Shown piece after piece: positions 2,158 through 13,559 of a stretch of 55,742 bases of DNA. Each line of letters opens with the position of its first letter. Position 1 is the first letter of the stretch. The notes below the pieces were generated by a model. It was not told the DNA's origin. It searched no databases and saw nothing but the letters and a program-made list of their open reading frames with translations. The stretch comes from a virus, in the IMG/VR virus record IMGVR_UViG_3300033143_000932, positions 1 through 55,742 of that record. One strand, given 5' to 3'. The position numbers were made by a program, and so were the translations under genes.

Positions 2158-3198
2158 ATGGCACATAATTTAAATATACACAAAGGACGTGCTTCGTTCT
2201 TTAGTGTAAAAGAAAAAGCATGGCATGGTTTAGGAGAAGTCCTAGAAGATTGTCCAACAAGTGAAGAAGCAATTAAATATGCAGGTTTAAACTTTGAAGT
2301 AGGTTTATCTCCTTTATTAGCTGATTTAAATAAACAAGCATTTGATGAGAATGGTCAAAAGAAAACTCCTTTTATGGTTAATTATGACCATATGATGGAA
2401 GTACCTGGAAAATTTGCTACTTATCGTAAAGATAATGGTTGTATATTTGGTGTTGTTGGAAGTAGATATGAAATAGTACAAAATAGAGACGCTTTTGAGT
2501 TCTTTGATGCTATTGTTGGAAAAGGTGAAGCAATATATGAAACTGCTGGTGCTTTAGGTAACGGTGAAACTATTTTCATTACTGCTAAATTACCTAGTTA
2601 TATTAGAGTAGGTAAAGATGATGATATAGAGAAGTACCTATTATTGACAATGGCTCATGATGGTTCTAAATCTATACAGGCGATGTTTACTCCAATACGT
2701 GTAGTATGTAATAATACATTATCTGCCGCATTAAAAGGTAAATCTAATAAAGTAACTATTCGTCATACTAAATCAGCACATGAGAATTTAAAGAGGGCGC
2801 ATGAAGCTCTTGGAATTGTTAATATGTTGAGTGATGAACTTGGTGACATATTTAATAATATGGCAAGAAAACCATTATATGGTGACCCTCTTGAAGCATA
2901 TATTGAAAGTTCACTTGGTTTAACTAGAGACGAAGAAGGTTATTTATCTACAAGAGCAAGTAACATTAAACAAAATGTATTAGAATACATGGAAGTTAAT
3001 GAAACTCAAAAAGTAGAAACATGTAGAGGTACTTTATATGGTGCATATAATGCTGTTACAGGTTATCTTTCTAATGTAAAAGATTATAAAGATAACAATA
3101 GTAAGAAAATGCAAAATATGATATTTGGTACTGATGCTACTATAAATAATAGAGCATTGAATTTAGGAGTAAATATATTACAAGGTAAAAATTACTAA
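2158..3198 (+). CDS. DUF932 / phage-plasmid-like protein (TIGR03299 type)
   Basis: The protein has the full pattern of the DUF932 family of phage and plasmid proteins. It has 'AWHGLGEVLEDCPTSEEA' near the start, then 'GSRYEIVQNRDAFEFFDAIVG' and 'IYETAGALGNGETIFITAKLP'. Later comes 'PIRVVCNNTLSAAL', which is also typical. Length (346 aa) is normal for the family. Its biochemical function is not established; family members often sit beside DNA replication or recombination genes. Only three bases separate it from the upstream gene, so it shares that transcript. Confidence 0.8.
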   Translation: MAHNLNIHKGRASFFSVKEKAWHGLGEVLEDCPTSEEAIKYAGLNFEVGLSPLLADLNKQAFDENGQKKTPFMVNYDHMMEVPGKFATYRKDNGCIFGVVGSRYEIVQNRDAFEFFDAIVGKGEAIYETAGALGNGETIFITAKLPSYIRVGKDDDIEKYLLLTMAHDGSKSIQAMFTPIRVVCNNTLSAALKGKSNKVTIRHTKSAHENLKRAHEALGIVNMLSDELGDIFNNMARKPLYGDPLEAYIESSLGLTRDEEGYLSTRASNIKQNVLEYMEVNETQKVETCRGTLYGAYNAVTGYLSNVKDYKDNNSKKMQNMIFGTDATINNRALNLGVNILQGKNY

Positions 3199-3215
3199 TT
3201 TAAAATAAAATAAAA

Positions 3216-3641
3216 ATGAGTAAAGCAGAAGAAAAATTACAAGAAGAAGCAGAACAAGATTTAGCTAAGGTAAAATCAGACAAAGAAATAATAGAAATGT
3301 TTTCTGATATAGTTCCTAATACTAATATGATAGCTATTGTACCACCATTAGTACAAAGGTATTATAATGTTAATCATAAAAATCCCGAAAGAGAACCTAA
3401 ATATCTACAAAAAACAGATGATGTATTTGATAAAGAAACTTTAGAAGCCTTTATGAAACATGGTTGTTTAGTTGTAGCTATTGGACATAATGTAGATACT
3501 AATTATCCTGCTGTAGAAGTAGGTAAAACTGTATATATTAGAGAAAATGGACAAAGAGGAATTAGAGTTGAAGATGAAGGGTATGCTTGTATTGTTATGG
3601 AACCTTTTAATGTAGCTTATATTCAAGATAATAGAGATTAA
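3216..3641 (+). CDS. Hypothetical protein with possible GroES-like C-terminal barrel, 141 aa
   Basis: The N-terminal 45 residues are charged and helical. From 'NTNMIAIVPPLVQRYYN' onward the pattern resembles a GroES-type beta barrel. 'GCLVVAIGHNVD' resembles GroES 'GEVLAVG', 'VEVGKTVYIRENGQRG' resembles 'VKVGDIVIFNDGYG', and 'YACIVMEPFNVAYI' resembles 'VLIMSESDILAIV'. If correct, it would be a phage co-chaperonin partnering host GroEL, in the manner of T4 gp31. The resemblance is at fold level and by eye, so treat it as a hypothesis. A strong terminator follows seven bases after the stop. Confidence 0.4.
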   Translation: MSKAEEKLQEEAEQDLAKVKSDKEIIEMFSDIVPNTNMIAIVPPLVQRYYNVNHKNPEREPKYLQKTDDVFDKETLEAFMKHGCLVVAIGHNVDTNYPAVEVGKTVYIRENGQRGIRVEDEGYACIVMEPFNVAYIQDNRD

Positions 3642-3647
3642 TAATTA

Positions 3648-3671
3648 CCCCCTCTTAATTGAGGGGGTTTT
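3648..3671 (+). terminator. Intrinsic terminator within the plus-strand operon
   Basis: A 7-bp GC-rich stem (CCCCCTC paired with GAGGGGG) with a six-base TTAATT loop is followed at once by TTTT. The T-run is on the plus-strand side only, so it acts on rightward transcription. The next gene starts 13 bases beyond, leaving little space for a new promoter, so the downstream genes probably depend on read-through. Confidence 0.8.
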
Positions 3672-3683
3672 AAAACTTAAATT

Positions 3684-4061
3684 ATGAGTAATAATAAAGG
3701 AGATGAATTAATAGATAGTTTAACAGGTGACGTAACAATACCTGTACAACAATTTATAAGTTTAGTTAATTCTGCTAGTGGGAATGACGCACAATTAGAA
3801 GAACAACATGCTAAACAAATGAATAAATTGATTAAAGAGCATATGAAAATGAAAGAAAATTTTATATGGTTTGCAGATGTATTTGAAAGTGTTATCAATT
3901 CTAGAAGCGAAGTAGAAATAAAAGAAGGAGAATTAATAGGTGATATTTTAAATAAAATACTTACTCCTATAACAATTAATACACCAACTAAAATAATTCA
4001 AATTGGGTTTAGTAATGGTGTAGCTAATTCAAAAGATGTTAAAACAATAGAACTAAGATAA
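3684..4061 (+). CDS. Hypothetical protein, 125 aa
   Basis: I do not recognise this protein. Residues about 35-60 ('DAQLEEQHAKQMNKLIKEHMKMKEN') look like coiled coil, and the C-terminal third is beta-rich. It has no membrane segment or known catalytic motif. It begins 13 bases after an intrinsic terminator, so its level is probably set by read-through. The remaining downstream genes follow closely on the same strand. Confidence 0.6.
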   Translation: MSNNKGDELIDSLTGDVTIPVQQFISLVNSASGNDAQLEEQHAKQMNKLIKEHMKMKENFIWFADVFESVINSRSEVEIKEGELIGDILNKILTPITINTPTKIIQIGFSNGVANSKDVKTIELR

Positions 4062-4071
4062 CTTTACAATT

Positions 4072-4335
4072 ATGGGGAAATTTAGTAATAGATTAATTAC
4101 AACTAATGTTGCAATTAAAAAGAGATTTGAAGAAGTACATGGTATTAAATACTATAGATTTTCTTCTGAAATAGATTTTATACATTTAGTTAAATCTGAA
4201 AGTAAAACTACTCTATGTAGTAGAGAATTACTAGGTCTCAATTATGCTAAATATAAACCTAAAGGAGAGATATGTCCAAGTTGTGAATACGAAGTTTTAA
4301 AAACTAAAAAAGAAAAGAATGGAACAACACAATAA
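4072..4335 (+). CDS. Hypothetical protein with possible zinc-binding cysteines, 87 aa
   Basis: A small basic protein with three cysteines, one in 'TTLCSREL' and a CxxC in 'ICPSCEYEVL' near the C-terminus. Phage proteins of this size with a terminal CxxC often bind zinc, but a fourth ligand is not obvious here. It overlaps the next gene by 17 bases. No function can be assigned. Confidence 0.55.
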   Translation: MGKFSNRLITTNVAIKKRFEEVHGIKYYRFSSEIDFIHLVKSESKTTLCSRELLGLNYAKYKPKGEICPSCEYEVLKTKKEKNGTTQ

Positions 4336-4705
4336 AAAGAAGAAAACAGATATAACAGAAGAACAAAGATTAAATATAGCTACAAACTTTTTTATAGGTG
4401 TTACTCTGTTAAATGAAACAATGTTTGAAGTTTTAGATACCGAGTTATTTAAAGGTAGAAATAAGATTGAAGGTAAAAGATTACTAAATTACTTTTCCCC
4501 TGTAGAGAAGAAGTTATTTAACACGTTCAGAATAAAGAATGAACAAGAAGAGGAAGATGAATTTCAACGTACTATAGGAAATATAGGAAAAATAGTAACA
4601 GAAATAGCTGACTTAAATGGTAGTGATATCCAAGCTATACTAGATGGGATAGAAGTTTATAAAAAAGAACTTCAAAGTGATAAGGTAGAAGAAATAACTA
4701 CCTGA
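4319..4705 (+). CDS. Hypothetical protein, 128 aa (last gene of the plus-strand block)
   Basis: An unrecognised, helical, charged protein. Its acidic tract 'NEQEEEDEF' is followed by helices, and the C-terminus is rich in E and K. It overlaps the preceding gene by 17 bases. Its stop codon lies in the first of three copies of a short repeat that fills the convergent junction. It is the last gene before the terminator that ends the plus-strand operon. Confidence 0.55.
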   Translation: MEQHNKKKKTDITEEQRLNIATNFFIGVTLLNETMFEVLDTELFKGRNKIEGKRLLNYFSPVEKKLFNTFRIKNEQEEEDEFQRTIGNIGKIVTEIADLNGSDIQAILDGIEVYKKELQSDKVEEITT

Positions 4706-4842
4706 GAATTCAATATTCAAAATCAATGTGGGTAATTGTACAGTACGTGAAAAATATGAGATACTTGATATAACTAACTGATTATCAAGTACTTACAAAA
4801 GCGTGTCCTGGAGTCTTAGAGACTTAACTACCTGATTATCAA
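4695..4842. repeat. Three dispersed copies of an 18-19 bp repeat and associated hairpins
   Basis: Copies related to TAACTAMCTGATTATCAA occur at 4695-4713 (diverged, overlapping the stop of the preceding gene), 4771-4788 and 4825-4842. The second copy forms the loop and 3' arm of a 9-bp hairpin (TACTTGATA at 4762-4770 with TATCAAGTA at 4783-4791). A short AGTCT/AGACT hairpin (4812-4824) precedes the third. The region has no gene. The repeats could be protein-binding sites or part of a structured 3' end; function is unknown. Confidence 0.5.
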
Positions 4843-4880
4843 TGAATTACAACAAACTGATGAAAGTTTACAATAGAAGA

Positions 4881-4917
4881 AAGGGTAACTACTATATCTA
4901 GTACGTTACCCTTTTTT
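4881..4917 (+). terminator. Strong terminator at the convergent gene junction
   Basis: A 9-bp stem (AAGGGTAAC at 4881-4889 with GTTACCCTT at 4905-4913) is extended by TACTA/TAGTA across a single-base bulge and closed by a four-base loop. TTTTTT follows on the plus strand. It ends the rightward operon. In the opposite orientation the hairpin is followed by TTCTTC, so it may also weakly stop leftward transcripts from the giant polymerase gene, whose stop codon lies 21 bases beyond. Confidence 0.85.
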
Positions 4918-4937
4918 AAATCATTACGTCTAGTACT

Positions 4938-7900
4938 TTACTTATCAAATACTTGTCTAGATGCAGATATATTTCTATATACTTGTGTTCCAAATGGTAG
5001 ACTTTGCATAGTCTCTCTTAAGAATCTACTATCACCGCTATTTATTCCTCCTTTAATCTCATCTTCACCCATCATAAGTAGAGTAGCAGACTCAATCCAT
5101 TGTCCAGCGTCATTTATTAAACCTAATGCTGGAACTGAATTCTTAGTTAATGATTCAAATGATGCGGGATTAGTATAAAAACTAATATCCGTTTGTAATC
5201 TTAACATTTGGTTCAATGTATAGTTAATTAAGAATTTATTCTTATCTTCATCATCTCCTGCCATTGATTTAAGAAGTAATCCTATACCTAGTAAGTTCAT
5301 ATATATAACTAACTCTGTTAGATTCTTTCTCATATTAGCTGCATCTACTTCACTAAACTTTTCATCAAATTTAGTTGCTCTAAATGTTAACTTACGTACT
5401 AATTGTTTAGCTGTAAATAGTAAGTTAGCCGCAGGACTTTCTTTTACAGTCTCATATAAACTAACATATCTACCTTTTCTAGTATACCCTAATAAACTAT
5501 CAAACTTTTCAGATTCAAATCTATTTGAGAAACCTTCAAACATCCATGTTCTGAATTGAGTTAAAGCTCTACCCATTATCTTTTGTTTAGCAAGTAATGG
5601 AGAATCAGGGTCGTAGTTACCATGAGCAGATTTAATAAGTTGGTCTAACTGTACTTTATAGTTATCTAATAAATCTTGGTCTAACTCAAAGTTCTCTTTA
5701 ACATCACCATTCTCATCATAAGCTTCCCATAAAGTATATTCTTTACCATCTTTACCTGTTACTGGTTTGTTCATCATCAAAGCAATCATCATAGGTGCTT
5801 GATTGACATATTCAGAACGTGCTTGTAGATTATATGGTGAAGCAAATTTAACTCTATTCTTTAAACCTGATTGAGTAGTAGATTCGTATAGTTCATTAGT
5901 AGCATCTTTAAGTACATCAAAGCTATCCATTAAACTTCTAATCTTTTTAGCTTGTTTACTTTCAACAACATTAAAAGTTAAATTCTTACCTATAGAAGCT
6001 TTTACCATCCACATTGCACTTAGGAATTGTTTCTTACTGTATGCTCTACCATCACTAGCTTCAATTAGATTAGATATCACACCAAATCCCATGTTACTAA
6101 ATGCACTAAATACGTTCCAACCCATTCCTTTAAGTTGTACATATTTAAGGACGTTATCTCCTATTTTAGAACCTACAACATTACCACCTAATTCTTCAAT
6201 TTGTGTTTCAAGTGTAATTTTAGTTGTTTCGTATTTAGTTTCATCTATTTCATTAGACTTAAATAATCTCTCATTAATTTCTAATTTAGATTCTAAATCC
6301 TTTTTATCTTCTTTCTCAGTCTTAGTTAATTTTCTAATATCAGAAACACCTTCAAGATTCCTTGTTTTACCATAGAAAGCATCCATGAAATAATCATATT
6401 GTGCTTTAAGTTTAGTAAATGATTCTTCTTGTGTTTTCTTAACTAAGTTTCCACTAGGGTCTACTTTAGGTCTTTTATCAGATGTAAATTCTATTTCAGC
6501 AGTATTATGTAAAATAGAATTAACTAATCTTAATTGGTCTTCTATACCAGCTTTATGCTTATAAGATAATACAGTAGATGTATAAGCTTTTAATACTTTA
6601 CCTAAATCTAATGACTTCTCTTTAGCTAATTCATTCTTAATATCCTTAATCATTTCTTTAACTTCGATAGCTGTTGCTTCTTTACCTGTAGTTTGGAAAT
6701 GATTAATCTTTTTAATTTTTAATAGCTTACTTACAGTAGCAGATTTATCAGATAGATGTTTAATATTTAAACTCTTTTCTACTTCACCTGTTACAGGGTC
6801 ACGTAATGCGAAAGATACATCATCAACATCGTCTGTTAAATTAGATTCTGTAAATTTATCAAATAAACCTCTAAATCCACCTTTCATACCTTTCTCACTA
6901 AACAACTCTAAAGTACTCTTACGTATTTCAGGTATAGTGTTAATTTGCATTTTATCTTGTTTACTTGGTGGTAAATAAGAAGTCATTTCAACAAATGTAT
7001 CTAATATGTACTCATAAAACTCTAACAATGTTTCATTATTAGAAATCTTCTCAAAGTCTTTATCATACCATTCAGTTGCTTTACCTTTTGTATCAACTCT
7101 TCTTGGAGCTTCATAAGTATATTCGTAACCTTTAGGTCTAATAAAATCTTTACCATACTTTAGAACTTGTCCATCAATAGCCATTTTAGAATAGTAATAC
7201 GGAGAATTAGTTAATTCCCATAATTTTAACTCTTCTGCTTTCTCTTTATCTGTTAGTTCTTCAAGACTATCAATTCTTTCTTTAGTATAATCGTAAGTCT
7301 CTTTGTATTTCTTTATCTTATCTTCTAATTCAGTTATTAATTTATTATAACTAGCTTCACCTAAATGACTTTTCAACTCTTCTCTATGTTTATCAGCTAC
7401 AGCTTTATCATATGTTTGGTGAGTATATACTTCTTTATCTGGAAATAACTTTCTTACATCAAATATAATTTCATTTTCTTTTTTCCATTTAAGGTACTTG
7501 TTCCAATCTTCTTTCTTATTAGTAGCTTTAGCTTTTCTTCTAAGTCTAGATTTAGTCTCAAAGAATTTAGTACTATACATATGAACTAAATCACCTGTAT
7601 ATCTACCTTTAGAATCTTGTTGTAAGAACATATCATACTTGTTACTACCTTTAGGTAATAAAGGATTAACACGTTCTAATAAGTTATCAAAGTCTTTAAA
7701 TACTTTTTCACTTTCTTTTCTAGCATTATCATTAGCAACCTTTTGTGATTTTAAAGCAGACTGTAATAATGCATTATCATTTCTACTAATATCTAATGTT
7801 CTACTAGCTAAGAAACTAACATCTTGTTGTTTAGCGAATATCTCTGAAATAGTAGTTTCAACACCTACTTCATCTTTAATAAACTCTTTACCTAATTTAT

Positions 7901-10900
7901 ACTGTAATTTAGTTAATTTATCAGCATAATTTTCAGCATCAATTTGATATATACCGAATGTATGATTTAATTCAGTACTAGTCTTTTCATCTTCATTAAA
8001 GAATAACTCTCTACCTTTTTTCCAAACATTTAATATTCTACTTGCTTCATGTAATTCAGAAGCAGTTACTTTCTCTTTAACTAGAATATTTTTGACTCTA
8101 TTTAAATCTCTCTCTGCTAAAAATTGTATATCTTCTAATTTAGACGCTTCCTCTAACTCACTTATCTCGTCATCTATAACGGCAAGACGAGAATTTAATT
8201 CTTCAAGACGTTTTAAATTGTTTTCTTTCTTAGCTGAAACAATAGATTGTTCAACTTGTCTCTTTCTAAATTGAACTTCATTTATTAAACGTATAAATCT
8301 ATTACCATCGTCCATTAAATCAGGAAGATAATAAAATTCATTTTCTTTCTCACGTTCTATAATTAATGCATCATACATTCTACGGTCACCTTTCTCACCA
8401 GTTTGTTTAGCGAATTTAATAGTATAACCATCAGGTACTCTTGTCATTAATTTTTTACGTAATGCTAGAGTCTTTTCGTAGTTCTTTTCTAAGTATCTTT
8501 TTCTAGTACCATCAGTATGACGTATACCTAATTTAATCTCAATTTCTTGAGTTTGGTTAATCATACTCGGTAAATAATCAGTAGTACTATCAGGTTCAAT
8601 ATTTGATTCTATAATACCAAATACATCAGTAATAACATCTTTCAATGCTGAATCTTTAGTTAAACCTAGTGTTTCTAATACATCTACAATTCTATCTACT
8701 AATTCTTGGAAGAAACTCTTTTCAGGACTATATTTCATAGTCTTTAAGATATCTTGAAATTCAGTAGAAGTCATTGCTAATGCAACAAACTCTTGTAAAT
8801 TATATGCACCATAAGTTACTTCTGCTTCTTCAACAGTTAAGCCTACTTTTTTACCTTGTTTAACTTGTTCTAATTTTTCAACTAATGTTTTAAGTTTAGT
8901 AGGGTCTATATTATTTTTAAGTTCATTAAAGATACCTTGTAAACGAAGTACTTGAGGACTACCACTTTTAATAGCTTGATTAGTAAATGCATGAGTTAAT
9001 TCGTGTAATAATACTTTTTCAAGTTCTTTAGTAGAATTAATTTTACTAGGATTATAATATATTACATTACCTTTAGTAGCTCCTCTTGCATTAAGGTCTA
9101 AATCAGTTTCAATTACAACATTTACTTTATTAACGTTTTCTAATAATTTCTTAGCGTATTCTTTATATAAAGGATTAGTAGAATTTGTAATTACATTACC
9201 TAAGAACCCTAAAGTACGTCTAGTATCATTTTCTTCATTTAAACTATATAAACCTGTAATACCTTCACCTTCTTCATTATCAATATAATATTTATCATAT
9301 ACGTCTTCAGGTATATCTTTAGTTCCTTTAATTTTACTCCTAGACTTGTTCGCCTGTATCAATGAAGAAGAATAACTAATACCTTTATCATATTCTTTAT
9401 ATCCAAAAGTACCTAATGTATCTATTTTATGATAAGTTAGTCCTTCACCTAATTCATATAAGTTAAACTTGTTTCCACTTTTAACATTATACATTGAGAT
9501 ATATCTTGGAGGTCTAGCGTAACCATTCTCTATTTTCCATAATGGTTCAGATTCTTTAATTATAGTTATTGATTCTGTTTTAGAGACATCTTTAATACTA
9601 TCTTTTAAATAAATTGAATCAGATTGTAATATAGTAGCTTTACTAGGATTATGTTGAAAATATTGTCTTTCAAATGTTTTCAACCCTTGTTCATCTAATA
9701 TTAAGTCATTTAAACCTTTAGAAAAACCAATAGTATTTAAATATGATTGAGGAATATATTTAATAAATTGTATTGCTTCTTGTATACCACCTGTAGCATA
9801 TTGTTGTAAGATTAAATCTTGTGCTAAAGTTCTAGTAGTATATTTAATATCGTTAAATTCTCCTATTTCTCTTTCATTTGTAATTAAATCTACAAAACCT
9901 GCATAGATATTCAATTCATCAAAATTTTCTCCTGTAGCAGCGTCAAACTTTATTAAAGAAGGTTTATTACCTTTATGAATATCAGTAGTTAATTTATTTA
10001 AAAAAGGATTTGTTTTACCAACAGGTTGAGTTTTTAAATCTTGTATAATTGAAGCCAACGATTTATTATCTTTAGTATCAAACATTAATCTTTCTCTCTC
10101 AACTGTAATATCTTTATCTTTAGATAACCCTAAATTACCACTAGTATAAATATAAGATTTTATATTTTTCCAAATATTAGTATATAATTCGTCTTTTTGA
10201 TTAATACTTAAATCTCTATTTGTAGATTCTAATTCAATAGCTTTAAACATATCCATTACAGATTTTTCACCGTAAGGTAAAAATTTATCCCATAATTTAC
10301 TATTTAAATTTAAAGCATACATACTAGCAAATCCATTAATTGTATTAGGTTTTACAAGATAATCATTAAGTTTAATGTAACCTTCATTTTTGATAAATTG
10401 TTGTTCTTCATTTATACCTATAAGTTGTCTAGGTATGTAATCTCCAATTAATTTACTCGCATTAGCTACTACTCCTTCATTACCTAATTTATCTAATTTT
10501 CCAGCTTTTAGTTTATTAATTATCATTGATTTATTTAAACCTGCACTATCAGTATTTATAGTAGATTGTAAATCTGCAAGTACTAAACCTAATTCTTTTA
10601 ATCTTTTAAATTTAAATAAAATAGATGCTTGTGTTTTTTGGTACTTTAAGTTGTCTTTATGATTATCACTATTTTGAATCATGTATAAAAGTTCTTTAGA
10701 CCCTATATCAGCAAGTCCAAGAAAGTTTTTATCCATATCTGTTTCTTTCATTAGTGGAGCGTACTTTTTAATTAAAGTACTTACAACATATTCTTCTCTA
10801 CCAGAAAAAGTATCAGATGTAATATCAGCGACTTTAATAGTCTCTTCAACGTAATCTCTAATTATATCTTGATTAATAAAAGCAGTTACTGTATCTTCTT

Positions 10901-13559
10901 CAAATCCTAGTTGATTTAAAACTCTAATAACATCAAATGTATGTTTATTAATATTAAGTTTATCTAGTATTTGTTCTTTTTCATTATCTACAGATGCAGA
11001 TTGATATGCAGAAATAACTTCTGATTTATATCTTTTACCTTTTATTGTTTTAGTACTAGATAAATTACCATTAGAATTTTCATTACCAAATTGAACACTT
11101 ATCCCGACCATTTGTTCAATAGTCTCATCGTACTTTTGTAAACTTAAATTTTTACCTTGTGATATAGCATTAAATACACTATCTAAACTAAATACTCCAA
11201 TACCAGCTTGACCTGCTGTTGCATTAATAAATTTCTGTTTTTGATATTTATCAGATAGAGGGGAAAATTTAACTTTATCTTTATTACGTGCTTTAAGATA
11301 ACCACTAATTTTAGCCGCATCTTCTTTTAATGTACCAAATCCTAAAGGTTCTGCAATTTGACTTTGTATTCTTTCATCAGGATTACTTAGTATATCAAAA
11401 TGTACATCTAATATAGTATTTTGTAATTCAAGTTCTTTAAACTTTGATTTAAAAGTTTCAAATTCATCTGTATGCCAATCTTCACCAAATATTTCAATAA
11501 GAAACTTATCTACTGTAGAATCGTTTTTCTTACTAAATAAAGCATCAATTTCAGATTCATCAAATTCATACTTTGATAATTTACCATTACTATATGTAGT
11601 ATTATACATATAAGAATATAACTTATCAATATCAAAATCAGAACCCATTTGTATAACAAAATCTCTAGGAGCAATTAATAAATCTCCTGAAGTCTTAGGT
11701 AAGAAACCTACTACTTCCATATAAGACATACTATTTAATCCTTGTGTTGGGATTCTAAATCCAAATATCTGTAATAGTTCTTTTGGTAATCTACTTGTAT
11801 CTATTAAACCGTCTTTGATAAAATCTTTAGCATTTAATAAATTACCTTTACTATCTCTAAATTTAAAAGGTATTATAATCTGAGCTGGTTTAACTACTTT
11901 TTTAGTAGATGTTACTTCACCGTAATGACTATTAATTAATTCTAATATTTTTTTAGCTTGTTTTTTATCACCTGCTTCATAATCAACGATATGATTTAAG
12001 TCCTTAGCAGAAATAGTTATATTTTCATCTGCTTTTAATTTCTTAATACCCTCATTAATATTATCTTTAGTATAAGAATCACTTCTAACTTCAACTTCTT
12101 CTGTACGTTGAGGTAATAATTCTCCTGTAAACTCTTTAGTAAATACAATATCAGATTGTTTTACATCTTCTAAGTTAGAAACTTGGAATCCTTCTTCTGT
12201 ACCTAATACAAATGAAGCACCTTTCATCTTTTTCTTTCTAACTCTATTATCAACTATTGAAGATAGTAAAGCTTCTATTTTACTAGATGAAGGGTTATGT
12301 GCTAATGGAATAACAAATCTACCTTTCTTATCTAATTCTAAACCTTGAATTTCATTAATAGAATAATCTCTACTAATAGCTTCTGATTTTAATATATCTT
12401 GAAGTTTTTCAATATCTAAACTACCATCTGGTTGAACTTGTAATTCTCTTAATATATTCTCATAACCTATTTTAAATAACTCATTATAAGCATCTAAATA
12501 TTTAGCTTGTGATTTTTCTACACCTTCTACATCTAGTATATTACTAAATAATAATTTTCTTTGTTGTGAACCATCATTTACTTTAGACTTATTTTCATCA
12601 TAAGGTACTTCTTGTTGTATCTTAAATCCTGTTCTAGGTAATCTCATAGATTTCTCCATAAGATTTATGTCATCTTTTATAGTACCATCTTCATTAAATA
12701 TATTAGTAGGTTTCGCAAAATCTCCTACTTTAACAGCACTACTAAATGCAACTCTATCAATACCTTTTTCAATAGCGACTCTTAATTTATCTATTTCTAA
12801 ACCTTTAGTTATTTGTTCAAATAATGGAAAACTAGATGATTTAATATAAATTCTTTTATCTACATCATTAGCAATATCAAGTTTATTTTGAACGTATACA
12901 GGTTTAGCAGGTTGTAAAACTTCTCCTATTTCATCAATACTTAAATCTTCATTATTAAGTACTTTCTTTTCTATAGAAGCTTTAACCTCGTCAGTTATTT
13001 TACCCATTTTTTCAAGCATATATAAATGCTCTCCTAAACTAGTAAATTCTTGTGCATCTGTACCTTCAAACCCTATATAATCTTTAGCTTTCTCTTTCCC
13101 CAGTATATTGTTGTAGTAATCTTGTACAAGAGAACTACTTTCTTTATCTGATATAAAAGCTTGTACATAATGGTCATTCTCACTATCTGCTAACTCAAGT
13201 CCAGGAGCAATATCTCCAGCAAGTCTTTTACCTATATTGATAAATGTATCTTCTACTTGTGTAATAGCATCTTTAGCTTTACTCTTATAATATATAGCAG
13301 GGTCACCAACAAATAATTGATGTACATTTGCATTACTTATTAAATAATTTACTACAAAATCTGTAGCAGCAAATTTCAACTTATTATTCTTATTTACAAC
13401 AGATATACTATTAACATAATTCATATCCATGAAGTTCATATTTTCAGCAGTAATACCAAAACTATTCCATTCTTGAACTTTATCACTAACTAATGATTCA
13501 ACATGTTCTCTAATTGTATCTTTAAATATTTGTAAACTTTCTGTGTAAACTTTCTGCAT
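4938..13559 (-). CDS. Giant virion RNA polymerase protein, C-terminal portion (catalytic DFDID), with HExxH metallopeptidase motif
   Basis: Residues 641-645 are DFDID within 'QMGSDFDIDKLYSYM'. This is the DxDxD metal-binding signature of the second double-psi barrel of two-barrel RNA polymerases, as described for the phi14:2 virion polymerase. Upstream, K240 in 'YIKSSSFPLF' and K277 in 'SSAVKVGDF' are candidates for the conserved lysines of the first barrel (inference). At 1519-1523 is HELTH in 'LLHELTHAF', a zincin-like metallopeptidase signature. Long helical, charged stretches follow, and a hydrophobic segment lies near 2745-2765. In crAss-like phages such proteins are packaged in the virion and transcribe early genes. 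The start ATG lies in a 13-bp tandem duplication, and a stop codon sits two codons upstream of it in this frame. It is very probably the continuation of the preceding 2013-codon frame. Function of the region beyond residue 1600 is unknown. Confidence 0.85.
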   Translation of the reverse strand: MQKVYTESLQIFKDTIREHVESLVSDKVQEWNSFGITAENMNFMDMNYVNSISVVNKNNKLKFAATDFVVNYLISNANVHQLFVGDPAIYYKSKAKDAITQVEDTFINIGKRLAGDIAPGLELADSENDHYVQAFISDKESSSLVQDYYNNILGKEKAKDYIGFEGTDAQEFTSLGEHLYMLEKMGKITDEVKASIEKKVLNNEDLSIDEIGEVLQPAKPVYVQNKLDIANDVDKRIYIKSSSFPLFEQITKGLEIDKLRVAIEKGIDRVAFSSAVKVGDFAKPTNIFNEDGTIKDDINLMEKSMRLPRTGFKIQQEVPYDENKSKVNDGSQQRKLLFSNILDVEGVEKSQAKYLDAYNELFKIGYENILRELQVQPDGSLDIEKLQDILKSEAISRDYSINEIQGLELDKKGRFVIPLAHNPSSSKIEALLSSIVDNRVRKKKMKGASFVLGTEEGFQVSNLEDVKQSDIVFTKEFTGELLPQRTEEVEVRSDSYTKDNINEGIKKLKADENITISAKDLNHIVDYEAGDKKQAKKILELINSHYGEVTSTKKVVKPAQIIIPFKFRDSKGNLLNAKDFIKDGLIDTSRLPKELLQIFGFRIPTQGLNSMSYMEVVGFLPKTSGDLLIAPRDFVIQMGSDFDIDKLYSYMYNTTYSNGKLSKYEFDESEIDALFSKKNDSTVDKFLIEIFGEDWHTDEFETFKSKFKELELQNTILDVHFDILSNPDERIQSQIAEPLGFGTLKEDAAKISGYLKARNKDKVKFSPLSDKYQKQKFINATAGQAGIGVFSLDSVFNAISQGKNLSLQKYDETIEQMVGISVQFGNENSNGNLSSTKTIKGKRYKSEVISAYQSASVDNEKEQILDKLNINKHTFDVIRVLNQLGFEEDTVTAFINQDIIRDYVEETIKVADITSDTFSGREEYVVSTLIKKYAPLMKETDMDKNFLGLADIGSKELLYMIQNSDNHKDNLKYQKTQASILFKFKRLKELGLVLADLQSTINTDSAGLNKSMIINKLKAGKLDKLGNEGVVANASKLIGDYIPRQLIGINEEQQFIKNEGYIKLNDYLVKPNTINGFASMYALNLNSKLWDKFLPYGEKSVMDMFKAIELESTNRDLSINQKDELYTNIWKNIKSYIYTSGNLGLSKDKDITVERERLMFDTKDNKSLASIIQDLKTQPVGKTNPFLNKLTTDIHKGNKPSLIKFDAATGENFDELNIYAGFVDLITNEREIGEFNDIKYTTRTLAQDLILQQYATGGIQEAIQFIKYIPQSYLNTIGFSKGLNDLILDEQGLKTFERQYFQHNPSKATILQSDSIYLKDSIKDVSKTESITIIKESEPLWKIENGYARPPRYISMYNVKSGNKFNLYELGEGLTYHKIDTLGTFGYKEYDKGISYSSSLIQANKSRSKIKGTKDIPEDVYDKYYIDNEEGEGITGLYSLNEENDTRRTLGFLGNVITNSTNPLYKEYAKKLLENVNKVNVVIETDLDLNARGATKGNVIYYNPSKINSTKELEKVLLHELTHAFTNQAIKSGSPQVLRLQGIFNELKNNIDPTKLKTLVEKLEQVKQGKKVGLTVEEAEVTYGAYNLQEFVALAMTSTEFQDILKTMKYSPEKSFFQELVDRIVDVLETLGLTKDSALKDVITDVFGIIESNIEPDSTTDYLPSMINQTQEIEIKLGIRHTDGTRKRYLEKNYEKTLALRKKLMTRVPDGYTIKFAKQTGEKGDRRMYDALIIEREKENEFYYLPDLMDDGNRFIRLINEVQFRKRQVEQSIVSAKKENNLKRLEELNSRLAVIDDEISELEEASKLEDIQFLAERDLNRVKNILVKEKVTASELHEASRILNVWKKGRELFFNEDEKTSTELNHTFGIYQIDAENYADKLTKLQYKLGKEFIKDEVGVETTISEIFAKQQDVSFLASRTLDISRNDNALLQSALKSQKVANDNARKESEKVFKDFDNLLERVNPLLPKGSNKYDMFLQQDSKGRYTGDLVHMYSTKFFETKSRLRRKAKATNKKEDWNKYLKWKKENEIIFDVRKLFPDKEVYTHQTYDKAVADKHREELKSHLGEASYNKLITELEDKIKKYKETYDYTKERIDSLEELTDKEKAEELKLWELTNSPYYYSKMAIDGQVLKYGKDFIRPKGYEYTYEAPRRVDTKGKATEWYDKDFEKISNNETLLEFYEYILDTFVEMTSYLPPSKQDKMQINTIPEIRKSTLELFSEKGMKGGFRGLFDKFTESNLTDDVDDVSFALRDPVTGEVEKSLNIKHLSDKSATVSKLLKIKKINHFQTTGKEATAIEVKEMIKDIKNELAKEKSLDLGKVLKAYTSTVLSYKHKAGIEDQLRLVNSILHNTAEIEFTSDKRPKVDPSGNLVKKTQEESFTKLKAQYDYFMDAFYGKTRNLEGVSDIRKLTKTEKEDKKDLESKLEINERLFKSNEIDETKYETTKITLETQIEELGGNVVGSKIGDNVLKYVQLKGMGWNVFSAFSNMGFGVISNLIEASDGRAYSKKQFLSAMWMVKASIGKNLTFNVVESKQAKKIRSLMDSFDVLKDATNELYESTTQSGLKNRVKFASPYNLQARSEYVNQAPMMIALMMNKPVTGKDGKEYTLWEAYDENGDVKENFELDQDLLDNYKVQLDQLIKSAHGNYDPDSPLLAKQKIMGRALTQFRTWMFEGFSNRFESEKFDSLLGYTRKGRYVSLYETVKESPAANLLFTAKQLVRKLTFRATKFDEKFSEVDAANMRKNLTELVIYMNLLGIGLLLKSMAGDDEDKNKFLINYTLNQMLRLQTDISFYTNPASFESLTKNSVPALGLINDAGQWIESATLLMMGEDEIKGGINSGDSRFLRETMQSLPFGTQVYRNISASRQVFDK

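Follow-up and report, generated by a model that had tools for sequence, protein, structure and literature searches.

The virion RNA polymerase gp66 of Cellulophaga phage phi14:2 (PDB 6VR4, Crassvirales) is described as an enzyme with both barrels in a single polypeptide, which is injected with the DNA and is responsible for early transcription (PMC7886860). In phi14:2, the N- and C-terminal parts of this virion RNA polymerase block are separate genes. Flavobacterium phage FpV4 has a gene of its own for the C-terminal part (gp33), and in p-crAssphage (gp45/gp44) and crAss002 (gp32/gp33) the border is located between an N-terminal virion protein and the polymerase. In the zeta group of crAss-like phages, RNA polymerase ORFs are disrupted by stops and frameshifts in metagenome assemblies (PMC7886860); the disruptions there are many, with introns, inteins and recoded stops. 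The multisubunit RNA polymerases of jumbo phages are made of chains that exist as several polypeptides (PMC7598289), and these splits are old and conserved.

Here, we describe a crAss-like virion RNA polymerase gene that is present as two ORFs in a linear virus record of 55,742 bases, analysed over its full length and referred to as the window. The window encodes a large terminase, a portal and a major head protein, as expected of the Crassvirales structural block. The downstream ORF, P0001 (Table 1), matches the phi14:2 virion RNA polymerase (E 2e-32 against 6VR4; E 7e-35 in a separate comparison with gp66), FpV4 gp32 (E 5e-132) and PHROG 16227, and its span includes the putative barrel regions. 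The DxDxD motif is common to gp66 and the window polymerase, and its aspartates are invariant across six aligned phages. Residues about 98-598 of the upstream ORF, P0002, match the N-terminal virion proteins of crAss002 and p-crAssphage, while its C-terminal part matches the N-terminal domain of the polymerase chain. By sequence comparison, P0001 takes up the chain where P0002 leaves it, the two making up a single crAss-like virion RNA polymerase of ~4870 residues. This is the same chain as gp66 by sequence and also by fold, the latter through the model of a relative described below. Both the similarity and the motif of gp66-type polymerases are found, but chain continuity through both barrels is broken here; membership by descent stands, and single-chain function does not follow from the record. 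A HELTH zinc-protease-like motif is present in a fused domain of P0001 (residues 1519-1523; window 8991-9005, minus strand), a region for which Pfam returns only sub-threshold SprT-like/eCIS matches.

Table 1. Positions of the features discussed, in window coordinates unless a locus is named.
Feature	Position	Strand	Remark
Upstream ORF P0002, 2013 aa	13522..19563	(-)	N-terminal virion-protein part and N-terminal domain of the polymerase chain
TAA stop of P0002	13522..13524	(-)	35 nt past the P0001 ATG
13-bp repeat copy, second in reading direction	13531..13543	(-)	identical to the other copy
13-bp repeat copy, first in reading direction	13544..13556	(-)	identical to the other copy
ATG opening P0001	13557..13559	(-)	poor start context
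Downstream ORF P0001, 2873 aa	4938..13559	(-)	rest of the virion RNA polymerase and fused C-terminal RNAP-associated part
QQEVPYDENKSKVNDGSQQRKLLF, conserved segment of the first beta-rich (putative barrel) region	12546..12617	(-)	
SDFDIDK, catalytic DxDxD motif of the polymerase	11622..11642	(-)	by sequence comparison
Gene interposed between polymerase parts in L118	L118:11545-12018		between ORFs 2489-11545 and 12030-16469
Loci with split polymerase			L118, L025, L033, L040, L044, L049, L113, L116, L122, L123, L124, L129, L143, L149, L150

The arrangement of the window differs from that of the described phages. All parts lie in one gene, which is cut inside the polymerase domain, whereas in phi14:2 the junction falls within one ORF. 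FpV4 gp32 (4287 aa) reads through the junction, covering both of its sides in one ORF, and the duplication is absent from it. The parts and their order in p-crAssphage and crAss002 are those of the window, but the border in these phages lies upstream of the window's. The break occurs within the polymerase chain, ~630 residues upstream of SDFDIDK, in line with an earlier reading of the DNA made without database searches (the sequence-only reading), which had placed it upstream of the catalytic barrel.

Two exact head-to-tail copies, TGTAAACTTTCTG, occupy positions 13531-13556, inside the 38-nt overlap of P0002 and P0001; the coordinates and identity of these copies are as the sequence-only reading had given them. 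That reading also held that the duplication shifts the frame, and P0001 is indeed in frame +1 relative to P0002, the final seven residues of P0002 (HRKFTNI) being out of frame. P0002 ends with TNAESLHRKFTNI before its stop, and P0001 begins with MQKVYTESLQIFKDT. Joining residue 2006 of P0002 to residue 10 of P0001, as was proposed, correctly gives 4870 codons. The array consists of exactly 2.0 copies and is extended by neither flanking base. It is the sole perfect tandem with a unit of at least 10 bp in the window, and first-order Markov-shuffled windows yield 0.025 perfect tandems per window for units of at least 13 bp; the repeat is therefore not due to chance. Across 2.65 Mb of related loci, 23 perfect tandem repeats with units of at least 10 bp were found, with a unit divisible by three in 18. 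Neither the two-copy junction nor a 30-nt flank had an exact match in IMG/VR. The repeat could possibly be a transposon target-site scar, which was considered for a 13-bp repeat that lacks flanking homology. An intron or intein as the cause of the break was rejected, because just 13 nt were gained on balance and no Rfam family matches anywhere in the window.

Relatives were collected in two scans (loci L007-L158), selected by catalytic-domain similarity rather than as a census. A locus was testable when homology flanked the junction on either side, which applied to 128 loci, equal to 106 distinct records (97 after sequence de-duplication) and including reference phages. In all 128, a single ORF holds the two sides, a result that applies to relatives no closer than the nearest, L007 (~50% identical). 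In an all-against-all comparison, the ORFs of 83 relatives span the window's break, and the majority of the remaining flagged ORF pairs are usual gene borders. When one copy of the repeat is counted, the junction spacing is close to that of the best-aligned relatives (6 vs 7 for L007, 6 vs 6 for L008 and 13 vs 13 for L015), and the L007 alignment becomes gapless at the junction, which together place a net gain of 13 nt en route to the window record. The repeat is absent from the relatives aligned there. Judged from these alignments, the split is derived and is seen in the window record only, in contrast to the old splits of jumbo phages.

An ancestral two-gene arrangement, with an incidental repeat, would agree with the one to three ORFs, of varying borders, that make up this block in Crassvirales, but 0 of the 106 testable records have a border at this site and the alignment demands the 13-nt gain; it is rejected for all relatives compared, and its probability overall is close to negligible. 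The sequence-only reading had noted that close relatives with the same two genes would make the split ancestral, and had advised aligning both proteins to crAss-like homologues. These homologues have one continuous ORF across the junction, and its claim of a single former virion RNA polymerase gene is borne out in 106 of 106 testable records.

Several further observations were made on the relatives. A DNA similarity search against phage records gave no match, and a single-protein search for relatives gave none, although alignment-based searches did recover relatives. In bacterial and archaeal genomes, just two matches were found. A polymerase relative (53% identity in the best segment) is carried on L160 (RXKF01000051.1), which was assigned to a Rickettsiales MAG but is probably a misbinned phage contig. 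The virion RNA polymerase block is fused in its entirety, into one ORF of 4.7-5.3 thousand codons, in L015, L031, L034, L046, L047, L068 and L075; the size of the window's fused gene is thus not special, and fusion is recurrent among environmental relatives. The polymerase gene of L107 is also broken, by a perfect 23-bp tandem duplication (L107:13572-13617) with 3 extra bases of repeat continuation, and has a second frame change ~250 nt upstream of it (about 13300-13330); this double breakage looks like error or decay.

Of the 64 positions that at least 90% of relatives conserve, 63 are kept over both halves combined, so that the gene shows no old decay and does not fit an old pseudogene. Where a window gene has an ortholog in the compared parts of the L007 record, it is uninterrupted. 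A lone break of this kind is compatible with misassembly, with a mutation of very recent date and with a newly arisen, working fission. It also differs from the disrupted zeta-group genes, as the window has one clean duplication and its genome, which uses the standard code, is otherwise open.

A working fission, real and fixed, would yield polypeptides of 2013 and 2873 aa that assemble into a functional enzyme, the second produced by reinitiation at the overlapping ATG. The conserved positions retained in both halves are consistent with this, as are the several polypeptides of jumbo-phage RNA polymerases (PMC7598289). The structural position of the break was assessed on an AlphaFold model of the L007 homolog, which is intact across the site, built with 18 relatives and standing in for the window protein (mean pLDDT 79.5). 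The fold of this model corresponds to the single 6VR4 chain (E 1e-44; TM 0.69, normalised to query length); domain names follow PMC7886860 and the fold matches. The junction falls at model residues 515/516, where helix 512-539 makes its first turn, and the loop immediately before this helix varies strongly in length among relatives. A cut at such a loop/helix border could physically be tolerated in the predicted fold, and the two-subunit reading is kept for this reason.

The start of P0001 speaks against fission. In a start-context matrix built from 39 other window genes, its first ATG scores -1.92, with 35 of the 39 other starts scoring higher, and 35% of internal out-of-frame ATGs (n=300) score at least as well. 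A later in-frame ATG, at codon 46 of P0001, scores 1.07, and initiation there would lose the conserved helix at the junction. Coupled reinitiation is further disfavoured by the 35 nt between the ATG and the stop of P0002, which is far for this mechanism. With no relative split at this site either, the option of two working subunits, raised by the sequence-only reading, is weak and we regard it as unlikely. It is quite improbable, too, that the duplication is real and fixed and that a one-chain polymerase has just been divided into an N-terminal domain and a two-barrel core, a fission caught at birth.

The best argument for a working fission in the window is that two polypeptides can make up the polymerase chain. 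A division elsewhere, at the counterpart of P0001 residues about 373-385, is found in 15 loci (11 distinct records; Table 1), where a gene separates the two parts. The interposed gene (~157 aa) is ferritin-like (Pfam Ferritin, E about 1e-12; PDB ferritins, E 4e-8), and the stop of the upstream polymerase part overlaps its start (TAATG). The upstream part ends after a QQxVP...GTQ segment, and the downstream part carries DxDxD, beginning MACQYFVNG in L118. Introns were rejected as an explanation of the ~475-nt gaps in these relatives, since the gaps are the ferritin-like genes. On a second model (pLDDT 82.8), this natural cut is located near residues 245-257 and separates two beta-rich regions (87-200 and 316-478). 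These regions are probably barrels, as suggested by the match to 6VR4 and QDE-1, and the natural split may represent a beta/beta'-like division between the two putative barrel domains. In the passages covered by a literature search on ferritin and RNA polymerase in crAss-like phages, ferritin-like genes are placed in another phage group. A tblastn search also finds a relative of the ferritin-like protein in L030 and in L130; they are not among the loci split at residues about 373-385.

Two further readings would give the duplication a function. In one, gain or loss of one 13-bp copy by slippage toggles the polymerase in part of the population, as a reversible on/off switch. Phase variation by tandem copy number exists in bacteria (PMC12817950), the repeat is perfect with a unit that is not a multiple of three, and the duplication in L107 breaks the same gene at another site. 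However, the array has only two copies, no other allele or copy number was seen, and relatives lack a repeat at the corresponding position, where a phase-variable gene would retain one. The break in L107 is elsewhere, with a second frame change nearby, and there is no evident benefit in silencing an enzyme that is probably necessary early in infection. The switch proposed by the sequence-only reading is therefore very unlikely. In the other, a full-length chain results from ribosomes that move to the +1 frame or jump 13 nt from a codon of one copy to the identical codon of the other. The two copies would offer identical landing codons 13 nt apart, and such a hop would restore the frame; T4 gene 60 bypassing (PMC11194080) and the frameshifts suggested for a Quimbyvirus reverse transcriptase (PMC8008677) are precedents. 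Against this, RNA folding at the junction is no better than in shuffles (z 0.6 to 0.9), no slippery site is evident there and the repeat is not conserved, so that neither the stimulatory structure nor the conservation in relatives that mark a programmed frameshift or bypass is found; recoding is highly improbable.

We consider that one ancestral gene was broken by a derived duplication and that the two-ORF form is most likely no working arrangement (probability roughly 0.8). In the ancestral one-chain polymerase gene, a 13-bp stretch is duplicated head to tail in this record, throwing the frame. An assembly artefact is about an even bet as its origin: the assembly would have set two overlapping pieces end to end, leaving a 13-bp overlap unmerged. 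Two contig ends sharing 13 bp and joined in this way give a two-copy repeat without flanking homology, while ordinary slippage often leaves short flanking homology. Tentatively, and with less weight, the duplication may instead be a real, very recent knock-out mutation in a defective genome; these weightings, like those of the other readings, are judgements and not computed values. In a functional phage, the chain would be read as one protein, as in the relatives. By analogy to the role of the phi14:2 enzyme, the polymerase is unlikely to be dispensable. Its presumed essentiality and the bare two-copy repeat favour an artefact or recent knock-out over a working two-subunit enzyme or a switch. 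Among the outcomes listed by the sequence-only reading, a dead gene and an assembly error thus stand jointly as most likely, with two subunits weak and the switch unsupported. Assembly-derived spurious pseudogenes are frequent in bacterial genomes (PMC11017572).

As it stands, the locus is mainly a caution that, in an assembly, a giant gene can pass for two because of one short tandem repeat. If the duplication were real and fixed, it would provide a direct view of multi-subunit polymerases arising from one chain. More broadly, the comparison reveals several points at which this polymerase family is cut and fused, one of them being, in other relatives, the natural split between the putative barrel domains.
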